Positions 2,630 through 62,109 of a DNA stretch of 64,000 nt are shown here, piece by piece; positions within the stretch are counted from its first letter, which is position 1; each line of letters opens with the position of its first letter. The DNA lies in contig NC_030679.2 of assembly GCF_000004195.4 (NCBI RefSeq), positions 36,941,712 through 37,005,711 of the forward strand, in the 5' to 3' direction. Source of the stretch: Xenopus tropicalis (taxonomy: Eukaryota > Chordata > Amphibia > Anura > Pipidae). The notes under the pieces were generated by a model, which was given only the letters and a program-made list of their open reading frames with translations, was not told where the DNA came from and made no database searches. Position numbers and translations under genes: made by a program.

Positions 2630-5600
2630 AAGGCATATTTGAAAGACAAACTTCTCCTGAATAAAATGATGCCCCATATGTATGGGAGCACATAAAGACA
2701 TGGGCACCAAACACTCCAAAGCAGGGGCAATGCACAAGGGCAATTACAGCTAAAAATGTGGGGGCTGTGCTCTATGTGCACTTCCTGCAGTTTTTCAGTG
2801 TTAACCCCCCCTACCTGTGAAATAACCCCCACAAACTATATATTTCTGAAAAGTGCACACCTTCAGCTATTCAGAGACACCACTCTTCTCTTTCTACATG
2901 GAAAATTGTGGCCGCAGTCCCTTGCAGAAGTAAGCGCTTTGGTCAGAAATTAAGGAAAAACCAGATAAAAAACCTAGATTTCTCCCCAAAATCTCCATGG
3001 CAACTACCAAAAACTTATTAAACATCGATCTGCAAGTTCCCCTGAATAAAACGATACCCCATATGTATGGGTGCACATAAAGACGTGGCCACCAAATGCC
3101 CCAAAACAGGGGCAATGCATAAGGGCAATTTCAGTTGAAATTTTGGGGGCTGCGCTCTATGTGCACTACCTGCAGTTTTTCATTGATAACCCCCCCTACC
3201 TGTGAGATAACCCCCACAATCTATATATTTCCGAAAAGTGCACACCTTCAGCTATTCAGAGACACCACTCTTCTCTTTCTACATGGAAAATTGTGGCCGC
3301 AGTCCCTTGCAGAAGTTAGCGCTTTGGTCAGAAATCAAGGAAAAACTAGATACAAACCTAGATTTCTCCCCAAAATCTCCATGGCAACTACCAAAAACTT
3401 ACTAACCATCAATCTGCAAGTTCCCCTGAATAAAACGATACCCCATATGTATGGGTGCACATAAAGACGTGGCCACCAAATGCCCCAAAACAGGGGCAAT
3501 GCATAAGGGCAATTTCAGTTGAAATTTTGGAGGCTGCGCTCTATGTGCACTACCTGCAGTTTTTCAGTGATAACCCCCCCTACCTGTGAGATAACCCCCA
3601 CAATCTATATATTTACGAAAAGTGCACACCTTCAGCTATTCAGAGACACCATTCTTCTCTTTCTACATGGAAAATTGTGGCCGCAGTCCCTTGCAGAAGT
3701 TAGCGCTTTGGTCAGAAATCAAGGAAAAACCAGATAAAAACCTAGATTTCTCCCCAAAATCTCCATGGCAACTACCAAAAACTTACTAAACCTCAATCTG
3801 CAAGTTCCCCTGAATAAAACAATACCCCATATGTATGGGTGCACATAAAGACGTGGCCACCAAATGCCCCAAAACAGGGGCAATGCATAAGGGCAATTTC
3901 AGTTGAAATTTTGGGGGCTGCGCTCTATGTGCACTACCTGCAGTTTTTCATTGATAACCCCCCCTACCTGTGAGATAACCCCCACAATCTATATATTTCC
4001 GAAAAGTGCACACCTTCAGCTATTCAGAGACACCACTCTTCTCTTTCTACATGGACAATTGTGGCCGCAGTCCCTTGCAGAAGTTAGCGCTTTGGTCAGA
4101 AATCAAGGAAAAACCAGATAAAAACCTAGATTTCTCCCCAAAATCTCCATGGCAACTACCAAAAACTTACTAAACCTCAATCTGCAAGTTCCCCTGAATA
4201 AAACAATACCCCATATGTATGGGTACACATAAAGACGTGGCCACCAAATGCCCCTAAACAGGGGCAATGCATAAGGGGGGGCTGTGCTCTATGTGCTCTA
4301 CCTGCAGTTATTTAGTCTAAACACCCCCATACCTGTGAAATAACACCCGCAAACTATATATTTCTGAAAAGTGCACACCTTCAGCTATTCAGAGACGCCA
4401 CTCTCCTCTTTCTACATGGAAAATTGTGACCGCAGTGCCTTGCAGAAGTCAGCGCTTTGGTCAGAAATCAAGGAAAAACCAGATACAAACCTAGATTTCT
4501 CCCCAAAATCTCCATGGCAACTACCAAAAACTTACTAAACCTCAATCTGCAAGTTCCCCTGAATAAAACGATACCCCATATGTATGGGTACACATAAAGA
4601 CGTGGCCACCAAATGCCCCCAAACCGGGGCAATGCATAAGGGGGGGCTGTGCTCTATCTGCAGTTATTTAGTCTAAACACCCCCATACCTGTGAAATAAC
4701 CCCCACAAACTATATATTTCTGAAAAGTGCACACCTTCAGCTATTCAGAGACGCCACTCTCCTCTTTCTACATGAAAAATTGTGGCCGCAGTCCCTTGCA
4801 GAAGTCAGCGCTTTGGTCAGAAATCAAGGAAAAACCAGATAAAAAAACCTAGATTTCTCCCCAAAATCTCCATGGCAACTACCAAAAACTTACTAAACCT
4901 CAATTTGCAAGCTCCCCTGAATAAAACGATACCCCATATGTATGGGTGCACGTAAAGACGTGGCCACCAAATGCCCCAAAACAGGGGCAATGCATAAGGG
5001 CAATTTCAGTTGAAATTTTGGGGGCTGCGCTCTATGTGCACTACCTGCAGTTTTTCAGTGTTAACCACCCCTACCTGTGAGATAACCCCCACAATCTATA
5101 TATTTCCGAAAAGTGCACACCTTCAGCTATTCAGAGACACCACTCTTCTCTTTCTACATGGAAAATTGTGGCCGCAGTCCCTTGCAGAAGTCAGCGCTTT
5201 GGTCAGAAATCAAGGAAAAACCAGATACAACCCTAGATTTTGGTCAGAAATCAAGGAAAAACCAGATACAAACCTAGATTTCTCCCCAAAATCTCCATGG
5301 CAACTACCAAAAACTTACTAAACCTCAATCTGCAAGTTCCCCTGAATAAAACGATACCCCATATGTATGGGTACACATAAAGACGTGGCCACCAAATGCC
5401 CCCAAACCGGGGCAATGCATAAGGGGGGGCTGTGCTCTATCTGCAGTTATTTAGTCTAAACACCCCCATACCTGTGAAATAACCCCCGCAAACTATATAT
5501 TTCTGAAAAGTGCACACCTTCAGCTATTCAGAGACGCCACTCTCCTCTTTCTACATGAAAAATTGTGGCCCCAGTCCCTTGCAGAAGTCAGCGCTTTGGT

Positions 5601-6055
5601 CAGAAATCAAGGAAAAACCAGATAAAAAACCTAGATTTCTCCCCAAAATCTCCATGGCAACTACCAAAAACTTACTAAACCTCAATTTGCAAGTTCCCCT
5701 GAATAAAACGATACCCCATATGTATGGGTGCACATAAAGACGTGGCCACCAAATGCCCCAAAACAGGGGCAATGCATAAGGGCAATTTCAGTTGAAATTT
5801 TGGGGGCTGCGCTCTATGTGCACTACCTGCAGTTTTTCATTGATAACCCCCCCTACCTGTGAGATAACCCCCACAATCTATATATTTCCGAAAAGTGCAC
5901 ACCTTCAGCTATTCAGAGACACCATTCTTCTCTTTCTACATGGAAAATTGTGGCCGCAGTCCCTTGCAGAAGTCAGCGCTTTGGTCAGAAATCAAGGAAA
6001 AACCAGATACAACCCTAGATCAATCTGCAAGTTCCCCTGAATAAAACGATACCTA
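2630..6055. repeat. Satellite-like tandem array, ~384-bp monomer, about nine copies
   Basis: The motif CCATATGTATGGG recurs near 2671, 3059, 3442, 3826, 4211, 4577, 4936, 5358 and 5717, spacings of 387, 383, 384, 385, 366, 359, 422 and 359 bp. Full monomers (3059-4211) are nearly identical. The later ones include a shortened variant with a GGGGGGGCTGTGCTC junction that alternates with full units. The unit at 5220-5280 carries a small internal duplication. The repeated open frames inside are by-products of the array, not genes. The first and last units are the most diverged, as expected for an array homogenised from its middle. Confidence 0.85.
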
Positions 6056-13896: not shown

Positions 13897-16560
13897 AAGG
13901 TGCACATTCATCAAATCAAGAGTTTGAATCCCGAAATAGGTAAAATTTGGATTGCGTACGATAATTTCTGATGATCGCAAATATCATGAAAATGCTTACG
14001 AAAAATCGTAATAGTCGTGATAATAACGTATTGGCGATCCGAAAGTCACAAAATTTTGGTATCTGAATGATTGTAGACGGCAGGAAAACCTTTCCAACTT
14101 TGATCCTTCTGTGCATGATTTTGGAAGCCTCCCATAGGGCTCAATGGCACTCTGCAGCTCCAACCTGGCCCAAGGAAAGCCTCCCATAGGGCTCAATGGC
14201 ACTCTGCAGCTCCAACCCGGCCCAAGGAAAGCCTCCCATAGGGCTCAATGGCACTCTGCAGCTCCAACCCGGCCCAAGGAAAGTCTCCCATAGGGCTCAA
14301 TGGCACTCTGCAGCTCCAACCCGGCCCAAGGAAAGTCTCCCATAGGGCTCAATGGCACTCTGCAGCTCCAACCTGGCCCAAGGAAAGCCTCCCATAGGGC
14401 TCAATGGCACTCTGCAGCTCCAACCTGGCCCAAGGAAAGTCTCCCATAGGGCTCAATGGCACTCTGCAGCTCCAACCTGGCCCAAGGAAAGTCTCCCATA
14501 GGGCTCAATGGCACTCTGCAGCTCCAACCTGGCCCAAGGAAAGCCTCCCATAGGGCTCAATGGCACTCTGCAGCTCCAACCTGGCCCAAGGAAAGTCTCC
14601 CATAGGGCTCAATGGCACTCTGCAGCTCCAACCTGGCCCAAGGAAAGTCTCCCATAGGGCTCAATGGCACTCTGCAGCTCCAACCTGGCCCAAGGAAAGC
14701 CTCCCATAGGGCTCAATGGCACTCTGCAGCTCCAACCTGGCCCAAGGAAAGTCTCCCATAGGGCTCAATGGCACTCTGCAGCTCCAACCTGGCCCAAGGA
14801 AAGTCTCCCATAGGACTCAATGGCACTCTGCAGCTCCAACCTGGCCCAAGGAAAGTCTCCCATAGGGCTCAATGGCACTCTGCAGCTCCAACCTGGCCCA
14901 AGGAAAGTCTCCCATAGGGCTCAATGGCACTCTGCAGCTCCAACCTGGCCCAAGGAAAGTCTCCCATAGGGCTCAATGGCACTCTGCAGCTCCAACCCGG
15001 CCCAAGGAAAGTCTCCCATAGGACTCAATGGCACTCTGCAGCTCCAACCCGGCCCAAGGAAAGTCTCCCATAGGGCTCAATGGCACTGTGCAGCTCCAAC
15101 CCGGCCCAAGGAAAGTCTCCCATAGGACTCAATGGCACTCTGCAGCTCCAACCCGGCCCAAGGAAAGTCTCCCATAGGGCTCAATGGCACTCTGCAGCTC
15201 CAACCCGGCCCAAGGAAAGCCTCCCATAGGGCTCAATGGCACTCTGCAGCTCCAACCCGGCCCAAGGAAAGTCTCCCATAGGGCTCAATGGCACTCTGCA
15301 GCTCCAACCTGGCCCAAGGAAAGTCTCCCATAGGACTCAATGGCACTCTGCAGCTCCAACCTGGCCCAAGGAAAGTCTCCCATAGGGCTCAATGGCACTC
15401 TGCAGCTCCAACCTGGCCCAAGGAAAGTATCCCATAGGGCTCAATGGCACTCTGCAGCTCCAACCCAGCCCAAGGAAAGCCTCCCATAGGGCTCAATGGC
15501 ACTCTGCAGCTCCAACCCGGCCCAAGGAAAGTCTCCCATAGGGCTCAATGGCACTCTGCAGCTCCAACCCGGCCCAAGGAAAGTCTCCCATAGGGCTCAA
15601 TGGCACTCTGCAGCTCCAACCCGGCCCAAGGAAAGTCTCCCATAGGGCTCAATGGCACTCTGCAGCTCCAACCCGGCCCAAGGAAAGCCTCCCATAGGGC
15701 TCAATGGCACTCTGCAGCTCCAACCCGGCCCAAGGAAAGCCTCCCATAGGGCTCAATGGCACTCTGCAGCTCCAACCCGGCCCAAGGAAAGCCTCCCATA
15801 GGGCTCAATGGCACTCTGCAGCTCCAACCCGGCCCAAGGAAAGCCTCCCATAGGGCTCAATGGCACTCTGCAGCTCCAACCCGGCCCAAGGAAAGCCTCC
15901 CATAGGGCTCAATGGCACTCTGCAGCTCCAACCCGGCCCAAGGAAAGCCTCCCATAGGGCTCAATGGCACTCTGCAGCTCCAACCCGGCCCAAGGAAAGT
16001 CTCCCATAGGGCTCAATGGCACTCTGCAGCTCCAACCCGAGCCAAGGAAAGTCTCCCATAGGGCTCAATGGCACTCTGCAGCTCCAACCTGGCCCAAGGA
16101 AAGTCTCCCATAGGGCTCAATGGCACTCTGCAGCTCCAACCTGGCCCAAGGAAAGTCTCCCATAGGGCTCAATGGCACTCTGCAGCTCCAACCTGGCCCA
16201 AGGAAAGTCTCCCATAGGACTCAATGGCACTCTGCAGCTCCAACCTGGCCCAAGGAAAGTCTCCCATAGGGCTCAATGGCACTCTGCAGCTCCAACCTGG
16301 CCCAAGGAAAGTCTCCCATAGGGCTCAATGGCACTCTGCAGCTCCAACCCGGCCCAAGGAAAGTCTCCCATAGGGCTCAATGGCACTCTGCAGCTCCAAC
16401 CCGGCCCAAGGAAAGTCTCCCATAGGGCTCAATGGCATTCTGCAGCTCCAACCCGGCCCAAGGAAAGTCACGATACTGAAGCTTGAATGAATCTGAAACT
16501 TTCGTACTCGGCACAACAATACGATTTTGTCGCATAAATTTTGTTACAAAGCATTTGAAT
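13897..16560. mobile_element. MITE with a hugely expanded internal minisatellite
   Basis: Left flank GTGCACATTCATCAAATCAAGAGTTTGAATCCC... continues to ...GATCCTTCTGTGCATGATTTTGG at 14125. Right flank reads CACGATACTGAAGCTTGAATGAATC...TTTGTCGCATAAATTTTG. Both flanks match, in reverse orientation, the flanks of the compact 392-bp element at 41586-41977. That copy holds only one unit of the repeat which here is present about 45 times. The right terminus appears worn away near 16550. Confidence 0.8.
14127..16467. repeat. 52-bp minisatellite, about 45 copies
   Basis: The unit begins CTCCCATAGGGCTCAATGG, continues CACTCTGCAGCTCCAACC, and ends (C/T)GGCCCAAGGAAAG(C/T). The period is exactly 52 bp across the array with almost no length variation. 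Variants are single-base and clustered: AACCCGG versus AACCTGG, AAAGCCT versus AAAGTCT, and GGACTC versus GGGCTC. They occur in runs of like units, as expected from unequal exchange or replication slippage. There are no unique spacers, so it is not CRISPR-like. Confidence 0.95.
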
Positions 16561-20965: not shown

Positions 20966-22037
20966 CAGTGCTGTTCAACTTCTGCGGTGCCGAGGGCCGG
21001 AATTTCTCTAACATACATGGTGGAGGGCCGCTAATGGAAGCCAGTTTTGGCCACTCCCCCTTTTTGAACCACACCCACTTCAAACCACACCCATTTTATC
21101 ACAATGGTGGTAGTGCAGCAAAAACCCAAATGCTTGGTCCCCATAAAAAAGAATTATAAATATAAAAGAATTATATTATGTCATATTAAGACACACCCTT
21201 AAATCCATATGCCTCCTCCTCCCCTGTGGATAGCACAGCAACCCCCAGCAACATAATTACACACCTTAGGGACCATTTAATGGCTGTTTCCAACTATTAA
21301 CAAACTCCCAGAACAAACCCCTGCCAGGTTCACCTCTCACAGGCAGCATAGGGCAGGCAGAGTATGGCACACACAGGCAGCACTCTGCCTCCCTTATGCT
21401 GCCTGTGTGTGCCATACTCTGCCTGCCCTATGCTGCCTGTGTGTGCCATACTTGGCCTGCACTATGCTGCCAGTGTGTGCCATACTATGCCTGCCCTATG
21501 CTGTCTGTGTGTTCCATACCCTCCCTGCCCTATGCTGCCTATGTGCCATACTATGCCTGCCCTATGCTGTCTGTGTGTTCCATACCCTCCCTGCCCCATG
21601 CTGCCTATGTGCCATACTATGCCTGCCCTATGCTGTCTGTGTGTTCCATACCCTCCCTGCCCTATACTGCCTATGTGCCATACTTTGCCTACCCTATGCT
21701 GTCTGTGTGTGCCATATACACAGGCAGCATAGTCCAGGCACTACATACTGAGGTGTGAAGAAGTGAACAATGGGGGTGATTACAGCCTGAGCCTGAGGTG
21801 TGAACACTGCAGGGGGTGAACAATGCAGAAACTAAAAGGTGTGAAAAACACAGGAGATTACATGTTTAAACAATACAGGGGGATTACAGCCTGAATCTGA
21901 GGTGTGAGCAATGCAGGGGGCCAGTTAATCTCAGTACTGATACTATTTAAAGCTTACACAAGAGTAAGCCATCAAAGCAGCCAGACAGGTGGGGGGCACA
22001 CAGAGGGGGGCCGCGGGCCGCCAGTTGGACAGCACTG
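20966..22037. mobile_element. Non-autonomous hAT-like element with internal minisatellite
   Basis: Starts CAGTGCTGTTCAACT and ends AGTTGGACAGCACTG. Flanks CGCTATAT and CTCTATAT form a 7/8 target duplication. Subterminal blocks (GAGGGCCGG on the left, GGCCGCGGGCCGCC on the right) are shared, inverted, with the element at 45230-46604. The interior holds the minisatellite at 21335-21735. No transposase. A second partial copy of the right arm (TTACACAAAAGTAAG... GGCCGCC) follows at 22050-22137. Confidence 0.8.
21335..21735. repeat. ~31-34-bp minisatellite (GTGCCATACTCTGCCTGCCC)
   Basis: About twelve imperfect units built on GTGTGCCATACT-TGCCTGCCCTATGCTGCCT. From 21500 on the array becomes a higher-order dimer (a GTGTTCCATACCCTCCCTG unit alternating with ATGTGCCATACTATGCCTG). 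Open frames in all three plus frames (114-122 residues, Cys/Pro/Leu-rich) are produced by the repeat and are not genes. Confidence 0.9.
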
Positions 22038-24887: not shown

Positions 24888-24893
24888 TTTATT
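24888..24893 (-). terminator. Candidate poly(A) signal of the cytokine gene
   Basis: AATAAA on the minus strand, about 750 bases after the stop codon at 25641. It is the only exact hexamer I found on this strand in the interval after the stop. This would give a 3' UTR of roughly 770 nt, if no further exon follows. Confidence 0.4.
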
Positions 24894-25092
24894 TTTCAAT
24901 ATGCAATAGATAGCAGCTGCTCAAATTTAAACCAAACATCTTAATACAAATACGAATACAATTATATAATAAATATGTAAACTGTTTTTGTAGGCCTTAC
25001 AACAGCCATTACTAAAATCAAACACAGTTTGAATTTTTCTTGACTTTCCAATAAAATATTGTAAAGGTGATCGGTACTCACTTTAAAAATAT

Positions 25093-25110
25093 ATAAATAA
25101 ATAAATATAT
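25093..25110 (-). promoter_or_regulatory. AU-rich element in the cytokine 3' UTR
   Basis: On the minus strand the sequence reads ATATTTATTTATTTAT, containing overlapping ATTTA pentamers and the TTATTTATT nonamer. Such elements bind mRNA-decay factors in cytokine transcripts. It sits about 540 nt downstream of the stop codon. Confidence 0.5.
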
Positions 25111-25640
25111 ATAAAAATGGTCAAATATGACTAGGAATACAGACATTACCTTAAAAGTTTGCAATAAATAATATAAATATAGATTTGTAAAAACATAAAA
25201 TACAAAACTGCAAATAAATATCTTCGTTCCGTATGAAGGATACAAAATAGGGTTTGGCTGATTTAGGTTTATAGTGGGTATGTAGATGATTATTCTCATA
25301 GGTTTGTGGGAAAACACATTTTTTTTCGAAGGGGCACTGTGTCTTAAGTGTGCCCTAAATTAATAACCCACACCAACAACCCAATGCTGAATAATATCTG
25401 CATACCCAATTATAAACATTTTTACGTTAAGATGATTTTTAAATAAAGTATGGTATATTATATCCCCTTTGTTTACATTTGGCATAGTGATTCACATATC
25501 TGGGGTACTTTTTTATGCAACCCCCCCACCCCTAAAAACATATTTGAAATATTTGACTCTAGTGCAATGATTTTGCCGTTCATCTGTTGCTGTAATATTG
25601 ATGTAGTTGTACAGAGATGCGGTTCTGCATCAATGCATGT

Positions 25641-25757
25641 TTACTTATTGGATTCCTGGCTGCAATCATCTTCATTATATCGTTTAAAGAAGCTTTTGAA
25701 CAACTTTTTAGTTTTCCAGGGGACCCATCCATTGAATTCACATTTGTCCTCTTTTAA
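25641..25757 (-). other. il4-like: Cytokine exon 4 (coding part)
   Basis: Acceptor TTATTCTCTTCCAG|TTAAAA. Thirty-eight codons then TAA at 25643-25641, residues 104-141. Contains the strongly basic final helix WKTKKLFKSFFKRY and two cysteines. Confidence 0.75.
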
Positions 25758-28700
25758 CTGGAAGAGAATAAAAATGAGATTTTAGAATACACTTTCCTGG
25801 TTTCATGAGCATTCTTGGCATTAAATGAACTAAACGAAAGTACTGTAGCTGCCATTTAAGATCTTAAATCAGATAGGGTCTGAATATCCAATTGCTGGCT
25901 CCTGTCTATGGTGTTGGGTAATGTATATAAAACTTTTATTGTACTATATGGTTTAAAGGCAGTTGTATTTTATTAATGACTGCGTGTGGAATATCCATGT
26001 ATTTCTCACAAATAAGGGCTTTCATTGGCTATTTGGAAGCCACGTGTGGACTGCTTGCCTGCAGGAGGCTCTGCTTGGAGTAAAACTGTGGGGCTCATTA
26101 ATAAACACAGGGCAAATTTGCACCTGGGCAGTTACCCATAGAAACCAATCAGTGATTGATTGTTTTCAGCCAGCTGAAAGGGGCACCTACATTGAGGCCA
26201 CTGGAAGTAACATCAAAGGGTGTGGTGAGCAACATGTTATCCCCAAGTCACTGGTTGGGGATCACTGCTATAGAGGTTTCCTCATTTTCCTTGAATTAAT
26301 GCTCTTTTAGCAATAATAAAGTTGGGCAAACTAGCCAACCTGCAGTAGTATGTATGTATAACTTTATTTATAAAGCGCCACAAGGGTACGCAGCGCTGTA
26401 CAATCTTGCAAAATACAAGATTACACACAGGGTGGACAAGTATTAAAATAAATAAATACAATAAATATATATAAATGCACAGGGAATAAGTGCCATGTGG
26501 TATGAGAAACAGTAGGAAGGAGGTCCCTGCCCCATAGAGCTTACAATCTAAGTGGTTGGGTAACATACAGGCACAAATTGGAAGGTAAGAGTGCACGAGG
26601 TATGGGCATTTGCCCTTAAGCGCAGAATCAGTAGTGATGCACAAGACTACAAACAAGTATCCACTACCCCACCTCAAAGTGCATTCTCTTAAGTTAAAGA
26701 ACCTCCGCTTGACAAATTTAAGTACAATAAATATCTATTCAGGGCCCATCTGTAATGCAATGCATAAAGAGGGCTTTTTTTTAAGGTACAGGAAAAATGG
26801 CAATAAGGGGGAGATGAACATTTGGCAATTTTATCTTCATTAACATAAAATCATTTTATATATCCTTAACAAAAAGCAAGCTCGAAAAAACCACAAATAT
26901 GTGATGCCATTAAGGTACATATACTATAAGACAAATGTAATAGCACTGTATTTTATTTGTAATAGAGGTATGGGGTCTATCATCCAGCAACCCGTTATCC
27001 AGAAAGCTCTGAATCAAGGGAACACCATCTCCCATAGACTCCATTTTAATCAACTAATTCTGCTTTTTAAAAATGATATCCTTTTTCTCTAAAATAATAA
27101 AGCAGTTTCTTGTATTTATAATTAATCGTTATTGGAGGCAAAACAATCCCACTGGGTTTAATTAATGTTTAAATGATTTGTTTAGGTAGACATAAAATAC
27201 AGTGATCCAAATCATGGAAGGACCCTGTATCTGGAAAACCAGATCCTGAACAGTCTGGATAAGAGAACAATCTGGATAAGAGGTCCTATACCTGTATTAC
27301 AGTAGCCGGATTATATACGTAAGTGAACAGCATTAGATTTTAAAGTGGACATGCTCAGTAATCCACATTGTTTGGACCTGACCACCATCAATCAGTTCTC
27401 ACAGATCCAGTTATACAGCAATACAAAGCATATAACTATCAGTATTATTCATCCTATCCAAAGTGAAAGGACTGCACGTGTAACCAGCTTTATACATAAC
27501 TTTTGCATATTTGACCCACAGCATGCAATGGAAGCACATGTTGTTGTTAAGAATTCCAAGCCTGTGGATATTGAAAACAGCTTTCTGCTCTGTATGAAAT
27601 GGCATAAATATGCTGCCAAGATTATCTCATGCCTCTCTGATTCACTGTTTGCTTAGGAAAAACTCCATTTCATGACTAAACTTCAAATAAATGGAGCTTA
27701 AGGGGCTGTATATAAAACACAAGCAATGTGATTCTGACTTAGCTGAGCTGCGGCCTCTATCAAAGCCCAGATACTTGCCACAAAATGCCTGACAGCTTTG
27801 TGCTCCTAAGGCCACAAAGGCCCGGGCCTAGAGAAGCACAAACTTAGGGGTGGCATGCCATGCGGGGGAAGGGGGGGGCGGGTTAGGGAGGTGCAGAATG
27901 GGGATGGATCAGTATATTATACTGATCTATCAATTCCGGTTAAATGGGTAACTTAGGTGCCTATTACCAAGGTTTGTAGCCAGGAAGCATTGGAATGCAC
28001 CAGACATCCCCACTGTAATGCCATTGTACATTGTAAAGGAACTATGTAAACACAGGGGTTGCCATACATTGCTGCTTTTCAAGACAATATTTTTTTTTTT
28101 GAAGTGTCTGAAGTTGACTTCAATAGGATAAAATAGTTCTGATCTGGTGTAAAAAATTACCATATTTTGAGCTAGTCAAGCATTAAAAATATTCAGAATT
28201 ATGCCTAAATATAAATTTTTTTACTGAATTGGATTTAGTGATAGTGCTAGCATTGCTGCTAACTAGAGCCGTGCCCTAATACAACACTCATGAGAATGGT
28301 GATAAGCTGTGAAAAGCATTCTGACCAACTGAAATCTTCTTTATTAACCATGACAATTCATTAGGGCAAAATACAGAACTGTTGTTCAATATTTTATTAA
28401 TCTCTCCTCGAATGTCTCCAAGCAATTAATGCAAACGAACAATCTCCATGATGTCAAATTGTTGGTCCCCATTTGGAAGTTTCTAATTGGGTGTTATGGG
28501 AAACTGTAATTGCCCAGTATTAGTAAATGAACCCCACTGTCTTAAATGTCCCCCTGATAAAATATACAGAAGAGCAAATGCCCCTGAACTAGAAGCCTTA
28601 GCCTAGGCTCCTCTATCCAAACTTGCCCAGTATTAGTAAACGAACCCCACTTTTAAATGTCCCCCTGATAAAATATACAGAACAACAAATGCACCTGGAT

Positions 28701-30340
28701 CTGCACCCTCATCCTAGGCTTCTCTATCCAAACTTGCCCAGTATTAATGCAGCTTTAATCTAAGAAGGGGGCAGGGGAACCCAAGATTAAGGATAGGCAA
28801 AGTAGAACAATCCTGTTGTTGTGGGACTACATGTCCAGCACCACAGTCAACACCATTTGCTGCCAACTCTAAAGCACACACTCAGCATCAGAGCCGCCCT
28901 TAGTGAGTAGCCAATAGGGGGGAAGCTGCCCCCAGTCCACACTGATTGTAGAAGTATTTGCTTAGCGACAGCTTCATTAATATGGAACTCTGCGCTGCAT
29001 AACTTGCCCTGGGCTCCTCAACCTCTTAGGACTACCCTATTCAACATTTACAAATATATGATTGCATACAAAAACTGTAACGCTAATAACATAAATATAG
29101 AACTGAGCTGTTACAAAACGATACAGTAAAAGAAACTGAAAACATACCGGGTCTGAGATAGTTTTGCGAATTAGAGCATCCAATGTTGCCAGCATTTTTT
29201 TAACCTGGGTGCTGCTTGGATCCCCAGTCTCTTTTAAATACTCCCGAGTAAGTTTCAGCTGGGCTCTCGCACATTGACACTATGCACAAAAAAGAATAAA
29301 AATTGAAACAGGCGCTTCATCAGCATGATCAGTATTGCCATAAACTTTCCCCCAAGCAAGGGGCACAGATCGTTCTCCCCGGCCAGCCAAAAGGAACTGT
29401 TGATTCACTGGCTCATTGTGTTGCTTAAGCGCTTCAACTGTACAGTATTTCCTCTTTTGATTTCACACAGAGGAACTGGAAGAGATTAAACTCTCTTAAA
29501 AAGAAAGCTCCCAGCTCGCAACACTTTTCTACAATAAAGAATTATTTTTTTTCATTTCTGTGGATTTCAGTGGCGTTTTAGGAAATATATGGAAGGCAGC
29601 CACCTAACTCTATAGTGTTCTATTTTGAGAACAGCAAAAATAAAATAAAATCTATTTGATAAATAGATAGACAGAAGACAAATAACATTTTTTTGCTGGG
29701 GGTTAACATTTGCATTTGTGCATTATATTACACCACACTTGCTTTAATGTAAAGCCTTTCTTGAAAACTAGTATTGGCCCACTACATGCAGCCAGTTAAG
29801 CTGCAACTCCCAGTGTGCAATGCAAGGCTTTTGGAAGGATGCTGGGAGTTGAAGCAGCTAGGAAAGCAGATACCCCTTTGTAAGCAAAAACTATGCACAT
29901 AACAAACAAATTCAGGCACAATAGTAAACATCTATATCAGGATACATAATACAGATATTGTCTTACCACTACAACAGATTTAGAGCTTTTCATCAACATG
30001 ATCGTTGCAAGTGAATCCTGGGAAGTGAGAGAGAAAACTTTTTTTAATTAAAATGAGACTAGCATGTTAGAGAACGTTCTGCAGAGGCAAAGGCAAGCCA
30101 ATGAGGATGATTCAGTTAGCTGAACTCTGTCCAATACAAACAAATGCCAGTACATTCTTTAGAAATACTTGAAGATCTCAGCCAATAGGAAGAGACAATA
30201 AGACGTTAACTTACATTTTTGGGCGCAGATAGAAACGGATAGAAATCCTTTTCAAACTCTTCTATTTCCTTCATGGTTTGTGTCAAACACATCGTAGAGG
30301 CACAGAAAAATGTGCAGAGCAGCACACAAAGAATCTGCAT
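25641..30340 (-). CDS. il4-like: IL-4/IL-13-like secreted cytokine, four exons
   Basis: Coding exons are 30340-30215 (126 nt), 30017-29967 (51 nt), 29279-29148 (132 nt) and 25757-25641 (117 nt with stop). Every intron is GT...AG and phase 0 (197, 687 and 3390 bp). The product is 141 residues. Residues 1-18 (MQILCVLLCTFFCASTMC) form a signal peptide, and residues 22-36 (TMKEIEEFEKDFYPF) look like helix A. Exon 3 opens with CQCARAQLKLTREYL, resembling the FCRAATVLRQFY stretch of mammalian IL-4. Exon 4 has KTKKLFKSFFKRY then a late Cys (135), like the C-terminal helix and last Cys of IL-4. Mature cysteines are at 60, 62, 109 and 135. One N-glycosylation sequon (N42-D-S) spans the exon 1/2 join. 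Four phase-0 exons with a tiny exon 2 (17 codons; 16 in human IL-4, 18 in IL-13) is the family gene plan. IL-5 is an alternative, since its exon 3 is also about 43 codons. Th2-type cytokine acting through type I receptors is inferred from the family. Confidence 0.72.
25990..26268. mobile_element. hAT-like MITE fragment in intron 3 / 3' flank
   Basis: The right end AAGTCACTGGTTGGGGATCA followed by CTG matches the family at 35446-35748 and 46827-47090. The left end is missing, and a foreign block (TGGGGCTCATTAATAAACAC...) interrupts it near 26089. Confidence 0.55.
26345..26600. repeat. Second copy of the 'TTTATTTATAAAGCGC' dispersed repeat
   Basis: Contains TTTATTTATAAAGCGCCAC, ACGCAGCGCTGTACAATC and GGTCCCTGCCCCATAGAGC in the same order as the copy at 20325. 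Lies in cytokine intron 3. Confidence 0.7.
26964..27296. mobile_element. MITE of the 'tatgggacc' family in intron 3
   Basis: Starts GAGGTATGGGGTCTATCATC and ends AGAGGTCCTATACCTGTA. The interior retains the poly-A-rich AAAATAATAAAGCAG block. Confidence 0.75.
28511..28746. repeat. Two tandem ~117-bp units in intron 3
   Basis: TTGCCCAGTATTAGTAAA(T/C)GAACCCCAC recurs at 28511 and 28624, and the first bases recur at 28734. Each unit contains CCCCCTGATAAAATATACAGAA and CTATCCAAACTTGCCC. Units differ by several substitutions and a short deletion. Confidence 0.8.
29148..29279 (-). other. il4-like: Cytokine exon 3
   Basis: Acceptor TTTTTTGTGCATAG|TGTCAA, donor GACCCG|GTATGT. Forty-four codons, residues 60-103, open throughout. 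Starts with the CQC pair and carries two amphipathic helices (AQLKLTREYLKE and QVKKMLATLDALIRKT). Confidence 0.75.
29967..30017 (-). other. il4-like: Cytokine exon 2
   Basis: Acceptor CACTTCCCAG|GATTC, donor GTAGTG|GTAAGA. Seventeen codons, residues 43-59. Too short to appear as an open frame alone; placed by splice sites and phase. Confidence 0.72.
30215..30340 (-). other. il4-like: Cytokine exon 1 (coding part)
   Basis: ATG at 30340 is the first ATG after the TATA box and opens directly into a hydrophobic signal peptide. The donor is AAAAAT|GTAAGT. It encodes residues 1-42. Confidence 0.75.
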
Positions 30341-30399
30341 TTTAGACTTTTAAGATGCTTCACCCTGGAATCCAACATTTCTGATATCTTTAGTTCTTG

Positions 30400-30407
30400 T
30401 TTATATA
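30400..30407 (-). promoter_or_regulatory. il4-like: TATA box of the cytokine gene
   Basis: TATATAAA on the minus strand, 60 bases upstream of the ATG, predicting a start site near 30372 and a 5' UTR of about 30 nt. Confidence 0.65.
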
Positions 30408-30433: not shown

Positions 30434-30474
30434 GGAAATGCTCAATCACAGGAAAATGTATACCGTGTGGTGGG
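30434..30474 (-). promoter_or_regulatory. il4-like: NFAT-type P-like element and RUNX-like site
   Basis: On the minus strand ATTTTCCTGTGATTG (30457-30443) matches the form of the mammalian IL-4 P elements (ATTTTCC followed by a TG-containing AP-1-like half). A second NFAT core (TTTCC, 30438-30434) and a RUNX-like ACCACAC (about 30465-30472) flank it. They lie 30-70 bp upstream of the TATA box. T-cell-inducible control is inferred from these words. Confidence 0.5.
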
Positions 30475-36899: not shown

Positions 36900-38080
36900 A
36901 GGGCACATTTACTAATCCACGAACATCCGAAAAGCGTCCGAATGCGTTTTTTTCGTAATGATCGGTATTTTGCGATTTTTTCGTAAATTGTTACGACTTT
37001 TTTTTCGTAGCCATTACGGCTTGCTCGTAAATTGTCGCGACTTTTTTGTAGCCATTACGACTTGCTCGTAAACTGTCGCAACTTTTTCGTAGCCATTACG
37101 ACTTGCTCGTAAATTGTCGCGACTTTTTCATAGCCGTCGCGCCGAGTACGAAAGTTTCGGATTCATTCAAGCTTCAGTATCGTGACTTTCTTTGGGCCAG
37201 GTTGGAGCTGCAGAGTGCCATTGAGTCCTATGGGAGACTTTCCTTGGGCTGGGTTTGAGCTGCAGAGTGCCATTGAGCCCTATGGGAGACTTTCCTTGGG
37301 CCGGGTTGGAGCTGCAGAGTGCCATTGAGTCCTATTGGAGACTTTCCTTGGGCTGGGTTTGAGCTGCAGAGTGCCATTGAGCCCTATGGGAGACTTTCCT
37401 TGGGCCAGGTTGGAGCTGCAGAGTGCCATTGAGCCCTATGGGAGACTTTCCTTGGGCCAGGTTGGAGCTGCAGAGTGCCATTGAGTCCTATGGGAGACTT
37501 TCCTTGGGCCAGGTTGGAGCTGCAGAGTGCCATTGAGCCCTATGGGAGACTTTCCTTGGGCCAGGTTGGAGCTGCAGAGTGCCATTGAGCCCTATGGGAG
37601 ACTTTCCTTGGGCCGGGTTGGAGCTGCAGAGTGCCATTGAGCCCTATGGGAGACTTTCCTTGGGCCGGGTTGGAGCTGCAGAGTGCCATTGAGCCCTATG
37701 GGAGACTTTCCTTGGGCCGGGTTGGAGCTGCAGAGTGCCATTGAGCCCTATGGGAGACTTTCCTTGGGCCAGGTTGGAGCTGCAGAGTGCCATTGAGCCC
37801 TATGGGAGACTTTCCTTGGGCCAGGTTGGAGCTGCAGAGTGCCATTGAGTCCTATGGGAGGCTTCCAAAATCATGCAAAGTCACAAAGGTTTGCCCGCCG
37901 TTTACAAACGCTCAATACGAAAAAGTTGCGACAATTTACGAGCAAGTCGTAATGGCTACAAAAAAGTTGCGACAATTTACGAGCAAGTCGTAACGGCTAC
38001 GAAAAAATCGCAAAATGTTAGTTTCCAATCCGAATTTTTCCCATTCGGATTCAGATTCGTGGATTAGTAAATGTGACCCT
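36900..38080. mobile_element. Harbinger-like MITE carrying 13 copies of the 52-bp unit
   Basis: Starts AGGGCACATTTACTAATCC and ends GGATTAGTAAATGTGACCCT, flanked by TAA on both sides, the 3-bp target of PIF/Harbinger elements. Inner arms repeat TCGTAA and TTACGA blocks. The core holds the 52-bp minisatellite. Confidence 0.8.
37184..37867. repeat. 52-bp minisatellite, 13 copies, inverted relative to 14127-16467
   Basis: The unit starts GACTTTCCTTGGGCC, then GGGTTGGAGCTGCAGAGTGCC, then ATTGAGCCCTATGGGA. Period 52 bp. It is the reverse complement of the large array and shows the same CTGGG/CCGGG and GTCC/GCCC variants. Confidence 0.95.
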
Positions 38081-41585: not shown

Positions 41586-41977
41586 TGGGGGACATTTGTG
41601 CTACAATTTTGTACCTTGCGACAAAATTTGTGCGACAAAATCGTATTGTCGCATTTAGTGTGAAAGTTCCGGATTCATTCAAGCTCTGTTATCGTGACTT
41701 TCCTTGGGCCAGGTTGGAGCTGCAGAGTGCCATTGATTCCTATGGGAGGCTTCCAAAATCATGCACAGAAGGATCAAATTTGGAAAGGTTTTCCCGCTGT
41801 TTACAATCGTTTGGTATGAAAATTTCGTGACTTTCGGAGTGCCAATACGATATCGTAACTATTACAATTTTTTCATAAGCATTTTCGTGATATTTGCGAT
41901 CATCAGAAATTATAGCATCCAATCCGAATTTTACCCATTTCGGGATTCGAACTCTTGATTTGATGAATGTGCCCCTA
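41586..41977. mobile_element. Compact MITE with a single 52-bp unit
   Basis: Left GGGGGACATTTGTGCTAC, right GATTTGATGAATGTGCCCC. The core at 41697-41755 has one copy of the unit (TTTCCTTGGGCCAGGTTGG, GAGCTGCAGAGTGCCATTGA). Flanks match those around the 45-copy array, so it is probably close to the unexpanded state of that element. Confidence 0.8.
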
Positions 41978-55441: not shown

Positions 55442-56362
55442 ATTTTGTCAAAAAAACAGTCACAAAAAAGAGTTATCCAATCAAACATTTTATAAACCGC
55501 AATACTAGGTTTGTTATTTATCTTCTCACATGTAAGAAATGTGATAAACAATATGTTGGTCAGACTAGTAGAAGGTTAAAGGAGCGAATTCGTGGACATG
55601 TTCTAAATATCACAGATACTAAATCCCATACACCAGTGGCTAGACATTTCCATGAATGTTCAAACAGATCACTATCATACCTCTCTGTCATTGGCATAGA
55701 TAGAGTTTTTCCTAGCCCTAGAGGAGGTAACATTGTTAATAACCTTATAAAAAAAGAAACAAAATGGATTTTTTTTTCTAAACACTAGACAGCCAGAAGG
55801 TTTAAACTTTGAATATGATGTATCATGTTATCTTCAAATGTTTCTTTATTCTCCTTGTTACTTACTGATATTACGAAGTAAACTTTTTCTATCTGATTTA
55901 TTTGTATTCAAATAAAAATGGTACTAACTATATATCATATACTATACATCTCTTTGCAACATATTAACTATACATGTAATGCATTAACTATATATTCCAT
56001 ACATTTATTTGAATATTCTTTCAAATATACATTTAAGATATATACTTATTCTAACACATGTACTTTTTTCTCTGTTTTTAACATTGTACTACTTATACAA
56101 TTAACTCAGAAACGTGATGATGATGATTGGTTAATTACATCTGTAAAGCTATTGGCTCTCTGTGCTGTAAATATCCCCTTTATGTAACCTCTCATTCAGC
56201 CTATGATTAAGTACCGTGAGGTACGAAACGCGTTAGGCTTAATGTACTATGTGTTAGTATAATAAACTTTTTGTGTTTTTACAACACTCTTTCGTGAACA
56301 ACTGCCTTCTTTTTCACTGAAATCCTGGAGTGCCTGCCTTTTCTTTATTTGATGTATCCATG
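55442..56362 (+). mobile_element. 5'-truncated Penelope-like retroelement with GIY-YIG domain
   Basis: From 55442 to 55790 the plus strand is open and encodes KKSYPIKHFINRNTRFVIYL, then LTCKKCDKQYVGQTSRRLKE, then RIRGHVLNITDTKSHTPVARHF. This is the GIY-YIG-type endonuclease module, with a Cys-x-x-Cys insert, found C-terminal to the reverse transcriptase in Penelope/Neptune elements. The YVG and the Arg of LKERIRGH correspond to conserved catalytic positions. A one-base shift in a T-run near 55775 separates it from FLNTRQPEGLNFEYDVS, the end of the domain. The protein would stop near 55915. The 3' UTR carries a hammerhead-like motif at 56198-56238. The reverse-transcriptase part is missing. 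Confidence 0.75.
56198..56238 (+). ncRNA. Hammerhead-ribozyme-like motif in the Penelope-like 3' UTR
   Basis: GCCTATGATTAAGTACC, loop GTGA, then GGTACGAAACGCGTTAGGC. A perfect 5-bp stem GTACC/GGTAC capped by GTGA precedes the GAAAC core. Outer GCCTA/TAGGC can pair as stem I. The CUGAUGA core appears as CTATGAT, so this copy is probably inactive. Confidence 0.5.
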
Positions 56363-61226: not shown

Positions 61227-61804
61227 TACATAATTATCCTTGTCATAAGAACAAAAAGGCTGTTACCTTATCAATAATATTTGCTCATGATCCTACAATT
61301 TAGGACAAGGACTGTATCATTCCCAACTATAAAATGATTGCCTCTCTTCATCCTTAAATTGCTTCCAAAATTCAATTCACTCCTTCTAAACTCCCCCATT
61401 TACTTGTGCCTGGCACATTCCTCCTAACCTACAGTGCTCTTTTTGCAGAAGACACATGGTTACAGTAAAGCTGTAGCAGTTTTTAAAATGCCTGTTTTTT
61501 TCTCTGCAGTAACAACACCTCCCACATGTACATCAGGAAAATCATCTATTCTATGTGATTATATCCAGTATCCTCTGTGCCACCCTAATGTTTTTCTCCT
61601 TTCATATCCCAAATTGCAATTATAATATTGCCCATGGGGGACTAATGAAAACGTTAATTTGAAGAAAATCTCTCTTGCACAAAAAAGCCTTTGATGGCAG
61701 GAAGAGAATATCTGGTCAGTAGCAGGCCTCTCTGAAGGTTTCCCTGGGTTATTTCACAAAAGTCTTTCCAGTAACCCCAGAACCCTGTATACAGGCCCAT
61801 GTAG

Positions 61805-61965
61805 CACCCAGCACCCAGCACCCAGCACCCAGCACCCAGCACCCAGCACCCAGCACCCAGCACCCAGCACCCAGCACCCAGCACCCAGCACCCAGCACCC
61901 AGCACCCAGCACCCAGCACCCAGCACCCAGCACCCAGCACCCAGCACCCAGCACCCAGCACCCAG
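61805..61965. repeat. Pure heptanucleotide repeat (CACCCAG)23
   Basis: Twenty-three uninterrupted copies of CACCCAG, 161 bp. As 7 is not a multiple of 3 and the unit lacks stops, all frames stay open; the minus frames give CWVLGAG repeats of up to 111 residues and are not genes. Confidence 0.97.
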
Positions 61966-62109
61966 CCCGCTCACTACACTTATAGACACACTTTATGGAC
62001 ACCAGCCCCTATTTGTACCCGCAATTATTAACAACCAGAAGGCGGGCACACATTTTAAACAGTGATTTGGTTGTCCGTAATGTCAATAATCATGGACCAG
62101 CCTACTCTG

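Follow-up and report, generated by a model that had tools for sequence, protein, structure and literature searches.

The window analysed here is a stretch of 64,000 nucleotides of Xenopus tropicalis (assembly GCF_000004195.4, contig NC_030679.2, positions 36,941,712 to 37,005,711). Its minus strand carries a gene of four coding exons (126, 51, 132 and 117 bp), which join in phase 0 and encode a secreted protein of 141 amino acids. The gene is real and intact, and it is already annotated, but without a name. Its product is most likely a secreted short-chain type I cytokine with a four-helix-bundle fold. Taken together, the plan of the exons, the predicted position of the helices, the cysteines and the AU-rich 3′ region are best read as those of an IL-4-type member of this class. 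A cytokine gene of the IL-4/IL-13 kind, functional in X. tropicalis, is the best single guess, held with slightly better than even confidence; the main rival is the IL-5/GM-CSF group.

Gene structure

The coding exons are arranged as follows, with helices from a single-sequence AlphaFold2 model and its predicted local distance difference test (pLDDT).

30340-30215, minus strand: coding part of exon 1, 42 codons; predicted helix A and a signal peptide that may be cleaved after residue 15
30017-29967, minus strand: exon 2, 17 codons (51 bp); expected A-B loop, with a short helix in the model at residues 45-52
29279-29148, minus strand: exon 3, 44 codons; predicted helices B and C, Cys60 and Cys62
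25757-25641, minus strand: exon 4, 38 codons and stop codon TAA; Cys109, predicted helix D (pLDDT <50) and Cys135

Introns 1 to 3 measure 197, 687 and 3390 bp; each is in phase 0 and bounded by GT-AG. Repeats were found by self-comparison of the gene body in intron 3 only. Splice sites were scored with matrices built on vertebrate frequencies. The donors rank, in order, in the top 1.7, 1.4 and 1.4% of every GT in the window on both strands, and the acceptors in the top 0.02, 3.5 and 0.6% of every AG. The acceptor of exon 2 is thus the best-scoring one in the gene. The original prediction, made from the sequence alone, had proposed four phase-0 exons with consensus splice sites, a second exon of 17 codons and a product of 141 residues, and was exact to the base in all of these.

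Both strands were searched mechanically for phase-0 chains in which a first exon of secreted type is followed by a short second one, a third of 96-190 bp and then a terminal exon. Five chains resulted, all on the minus strand and all with the same exon 1 and exon 3. The top chain is the gene described here, with a summed splice score of 30.6. For control, 240 windows were generated by shuffling in 4-kb blocks with dinucleotide frequencies kept. Any chain occurred in 3 of them at equal thresholds (best score 26.9) and in 21 at looser ones (best 28.9); the score of 30.6 was matched in none of the 240. The acceptor threshold of 2.5 was chosen after the value of exon 3 (2.65) was known, and the limits on exon size follow the plan of this gene. 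The chain counts are therefore a guide only, and the score comparison carries more weight.

The product is identical, at 100% over 100% of its length, to the GenBank/nr entry 'hypothetical protein XENTR_v10008202 [Xenopus tropicalis]'. It had been supposed that ordinary annotation often misses such genes; this one is annotated, as an unnamed, 'hypothetical' entry. XENTR_v10008202 is without mention in the open-licence papers searched, subscription papers being outside that scope.

Protein product

The protein starts with a hydrophobic signal peptide, as predicted; cleavage is plausible at several points behind it, among them that after residue 15. The AlphaFold2 model (mean pLDDT 51.6) contains long helices at residues 3-33, 57-77, 83-99 and 117-134 and a short helix at 45-52. 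In this low-confidence model, the long helices are distributed over exons 1 to 4 as A, loop, B and C, and D, which is the placement expected for the IL-4 plan. All four are amphipathic; shuffles were equally high in 0.5, 4.2, 5.1 and 10.2% of cases, respectively, with the segment limits taken from the same model.

In human IL-4, exon 1 encodes the signal peptide and helix A, exon 2 the A-B loop, exon 3 helices B and C, and exon 4 the C-D loop and helix D (PMC4905449). IL-4/13 genes, those of amphibians included, have four coding exons and three phase-0 introns (PMC4905449). The gene in the window follows the same plan, which is common to other short-chain cytokines and hence not specific.

Cys18, Cys62, Cys109 and Cys135 presumably correspond to Cys3, Cys46, Cys99 and Cys127 of human IL-4. 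The pairs Cys62-Cys109 and Cys18-Cys135 would then be the counterparts of Cys46-Cys99 and Cys3-Cys127, respectively. Exon 3 was said to open with a CRA-x-L-rich segment. This describes it loosely, its actual start being C-Q-C-A-R-A-Q-L instead of a literal C-R-A-x-L. Glu25 lies within predicted helix A. A functional glutamate in this helix is typical of the IL-3/IL-5/GM-CSF family, and IL-4 has such a residue as well.

3′ region and possible promoter

Three further features flank the coding exons.

24888..25640, minus strand: putative 3′ untranslated region with an AU-rich element; inferred polyadenylation site, AATAAA at 24893
30401..30407, minus strand: TATA-like box TATATAA, 67 bp upstream of the ATG
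30434..30457, minus strand: possible inducible-promoter motifs ATTTTCC (30457-30451) and CATTTCC (30440-30434), at -117 and -100 from the ATG

Nine ATTTA motifs lie between the stop codon and a point just past the AATAAA, in an AT-rich stretch; the whole window predicts 2.0 per 770 nt. Two copies of TTATTTATT (at 25171 and 25104) occur in the 3′ region, against an expectation of 0.07 per 770 nt from the whole window. At least nine ATTTA were contained in 0.8% of 20,000 random segments, a value that is uncorrected for AT-richness and includes draws from the 3′ region itself. Cytokine mRNAs typically carry AU-rich elements of this kind.

The motifs ATTTTCC and CATTTCC are putative NFAT-type sites by consensus. 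With spacings fitted to this gene, the order ATTTTCC, ATTTCC and TATA occurs once in the window, both strands considered. ATTTTCC followed within 100 bp by a TATA-like site occurs nine times, and the promoter evidence is weak for this reason. An ATG in another frame, seen by eye at 30376-30378, precedes the start codon by 38 bp, and its frame runs into the gene. It may be too close to the cap to matter, or it may damp translation.

Family assignment

The protein was compared with eight cytokine sequences by exon-anchored alignment, with z-scores from shuffles. The total z was 0.12, -0.61 and 1.09 for human, chicken and mouse IL-4, 0.68 and -0.10 for human and mouse IL-13, and 0.33, 0.75 and 1.28 for IL-5, GM-CSF and human IL-2, respectively. 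Control comparisons reached 8.6 to 18 among IL-4 orthologues and 24 to 26 among IL-13 orthologues. Differing cytokines, including IL-4 against IL-13, scored only -0.4 to 4.2, so the alignment is unable to resolve a distant member. Chicken IL-4 and human IL-13, a true family pair, gave a z of -0.2. Over exon 3, the values were 2.1 for mouse IL-4, 2.0 for IL-5 and 1.8 for GM-CSF, and the other four IL-4/IL-13 sequences fell below IL-5 and GM-CSF.

Exon 2 comprises 16 codons in IL-4, 18 in IL-13, 11 in IL-5, 14 in GM-CSF and 20 in IL-2. With its 17 codons, the exon found here stands between IL-4 and IL-13 and is longer than that of IL-5 or GM-CSF. Exon 3 has 43 codons in human IL-5, 42 in GM-CSF and 48 in IL-2. 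Its published size is 120-129 bp in IL-4/13 of shark, gar and amphibians and 126-177 bp in tetrapod IL-4 (PMC4905449). The 132 bp of the present exon 3 lie inside the tetrapod IL-4 range.

Several results are neutral on an IL-4/IL-13-type cytokine or weigh against it. The similarity to IL-4 and IL-13 does not rise above shuffle level and does not exceed that to IL-5, GM-CSF or IL-2, and exon 3 is outside the range of shark, gar and amphibian IL-4/13. The proposed profile and structure check brought out the expected helices, but no Pfam family matched the 141-residue product at E<=10, and model confidence is low (mean pLDDT as above), with residues 99-141, including helix D, below 50. The predicted fold is too uncertain to confirm or refute a four-helix bundle. 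No cytokine was found among PDB sequences at E<=10, and no short-chain type I cytokine among the 50 structural matches listed, a comparison that cannot exclude one. The IL-4 pair Cys24-Cys65 is without counterpart, while Cys60 is extra and without obvious partner. No consensus site for GATA, STAT6 (TTCN4GAA) or AP-1 was found within 400 bp upstream of the ATG. Coding sequence of RAD50, KIF3A and IRF1 was not found in the window with human proteins as queries.

Compared with mammalian and bird IL-4/IL-13, the gene has a like exon plan, a like predicted layout of helices per exon and, at either end of the mature protein, cysteines resembling those of IL-4, whereas alignment remains within shuffle noise and one cysteine pair is lacking. 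These likenesses support the IL-4/IL-13-like part of the original claim; the preference for IL-4/IL-13 over IL-5, GM-CSF and IL-2 is not borne out by the total z. The exon work was exact, and the family claim goes beyond the evidence.

A frog member of the IL-3/IL-5/GM-CSF family, whose receptors have a common beta chain, is an unlikely identity, though the nearest competitor. IL-5 and GM-CSF are of the same four-helix short-chain class and have the four-exon phase-0 plan; an exon 3 of 44 codons is near theirs, and their exon-3 z-scores are about equal to that of mouse IL-4, the best of the IL-4 sequences. Their exon 2 is shorter than 17 codons, however, and the whole-protein z is just 0.3 for IL-5 and 0.75 for GM-CSF. 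Pairing of Cys135 with a Cys18 close to the start of the mature protein would be an IL-4 feature that this family lacks. The family is extremely poorly conserved and resides in the same locus, beside RAD50 (PMC4690019). No open-licence paper was found that names IL-5 or GM-CSF of Xenopus or other amphibians, or Xenopus IL-3, with subscription papers and other wordings outside the scope of the search.

Another short-chain type I cytokine, whether of the IL-2, IL-21, IL-15-like, IL-9 or TSLP type or confined to frogs within this fold, is quite improbable. Human IL-2 gave the top total z of the eight, with 108 of 1000 shuffles equally good, and exon plan and helix order are common to the fold class. 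Exons 2 and 3 of IL-2 are longer, and IL-2 and IL-21 lie on another X. tropicalis chromosome. A secreted protein other than a cytokine, or a gene no longer functional, is slightly more improbable still. It would fit the low confidence of the model and a word-based protein search, confined to relatives with common five-residue words, in which one of seven candidates passed E<=10 and proved to be the protein's own entry. The open frame is intact across four exons, though, with splice sites that beat all 240 shuffles; predicted amphipathic helices lie where expected, and an AU-rich 3′ region and a TATA-like box are present.

Genomic surroundings

Within the reach of the scans, this is the only gene in a stretch rich in repeats. 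RAD50 was not found in the 64 kb with the X. tropicalis RAD50 protein as query either, and Pfam searches on translated reading frames covering some 52 of the 64 kb yielded a single sub-threshold GIY-YIG match. Synteny, the usual criterion for the IL-4/13 family and one of the checks proposed, is unreadable in the window because no neighbouring gene was found. In mammals, genes of the IL-3/IL-5/GM-CSF family lie on the IRF1 side of RAD50 or near ACSL6. The frog il4/13 gene is placed in the kif3a/rad50 locus, as repeated in a 2022 review (PMC9465101).

Several repeats were recorded. To judge by eye, one 52-bp unit forms two tandem arrays of opposite orientation, at 14125-16469 (45 copies) and 37184-37864 (13 copies). 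On either side of the latter lie 41-bp repeats (37001-37135 and 37916-38007), seemingly inverted to each other, and a stray unit lies near 41690. The whole resembles a mobile element that contains a minisatellite. About 9 tandem copies of a 384-bp unit (86% matches) extend over 2652-6020, and a perfect 7-bp repeat, AGCACCC, over 61803-61966 (23 copies). An Rfam match to mir-9223 at 21352-21427 (56.8 bits, cut-off 53) overlaps the edge of a 34/66-bp tandem repeat at 21382-21716 and is possibly a repeat instead of a true microRNA. The GIY-YIG match at 55513-55629 on the plus strand (20 bits, cut-off 22.6) is perhaps a fragment of a Penelope-like retroelement.

Relation to known frog cytokines and proposed function

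The contig of the window is taken to be chromosome 3 of X. tropicalis v10, the chromosome of the published frog IL-4/13 scaffold. This scaffold, NW_004668234, belongs to Chr03 (PMC4928184) and is the source of the X. tropicalis IL-4/13 gene of Wang et al. (2016; PMC4905449). As described, that gene and the present one are alike in species, presumed chromosome, four coding exons and three phase-0 introns; the 120-129 bp given for exon 3 of the shark, gar and amphibian genes, against 132 bp here, argue mildly against identity. In Xenopus laevis, effects of recombinant IL4 on the mucus of the skin, on inflammation and on chytrid load were reported by Hauser et al. (2024; PMC11290838). Given before infection, it reportedly lowered skin chytrid loads, but given after infection it did not (PMC11290838). 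This frog cytokine, a possible orthologue of the present product, goes by the name IL4, is induced in mast cells and is active as a recombinant protein. A frog IL-4/13 is therefore not new in principle, one having been reported in 2016 and X. laevis IL4 tested in 2024. To present the gene as the unrecognised amphibian Th2-type cytokine, as first proposed, is too strong, all the more with its protein in GenBank.

If the gene is of the IL-4/IL-13 kind, its transcription would be induced, through the putative NFAT-type promoter sites, in activated T cells, mast cells or innate lymphoid cells, and the AU-rich element would make the mRNA short-lived. The mature protein, of about 126 residues, may form an up-up-down-down bundle held by Cys62-Cys109 and Cys18-Cys135. 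Its receptor would be of the IL-4R-alpha type, paired with the common gamma chain or with IL-13R-alpha1, and signalling through STAT6 would lead to type 2 responses.

That the gene is a second, undescribed amphibian type 2 cytokine, either a tandem copy of IL-4/13 or the first amphibian gene of the IL-5/GM-CSF family, is a tenable possibility, though short of probable. Should it be the already reported frog IL-4/13, the gain is limited to a precise annotation. Type 2 cytokines evolve fast, which leaves their amphibian history poorly resolved. More studies, in amphibians among others, have been called for to date the duplication into IL-4 and IL-13 (PMC9465101). A tandem copy of IL-4/13 would imply that the two split before or within the amphibians. 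With its exons, promoter and 3′ region defined, the X. tropicalis gene offers a testable start for the study of type 2 immunity in frogs.

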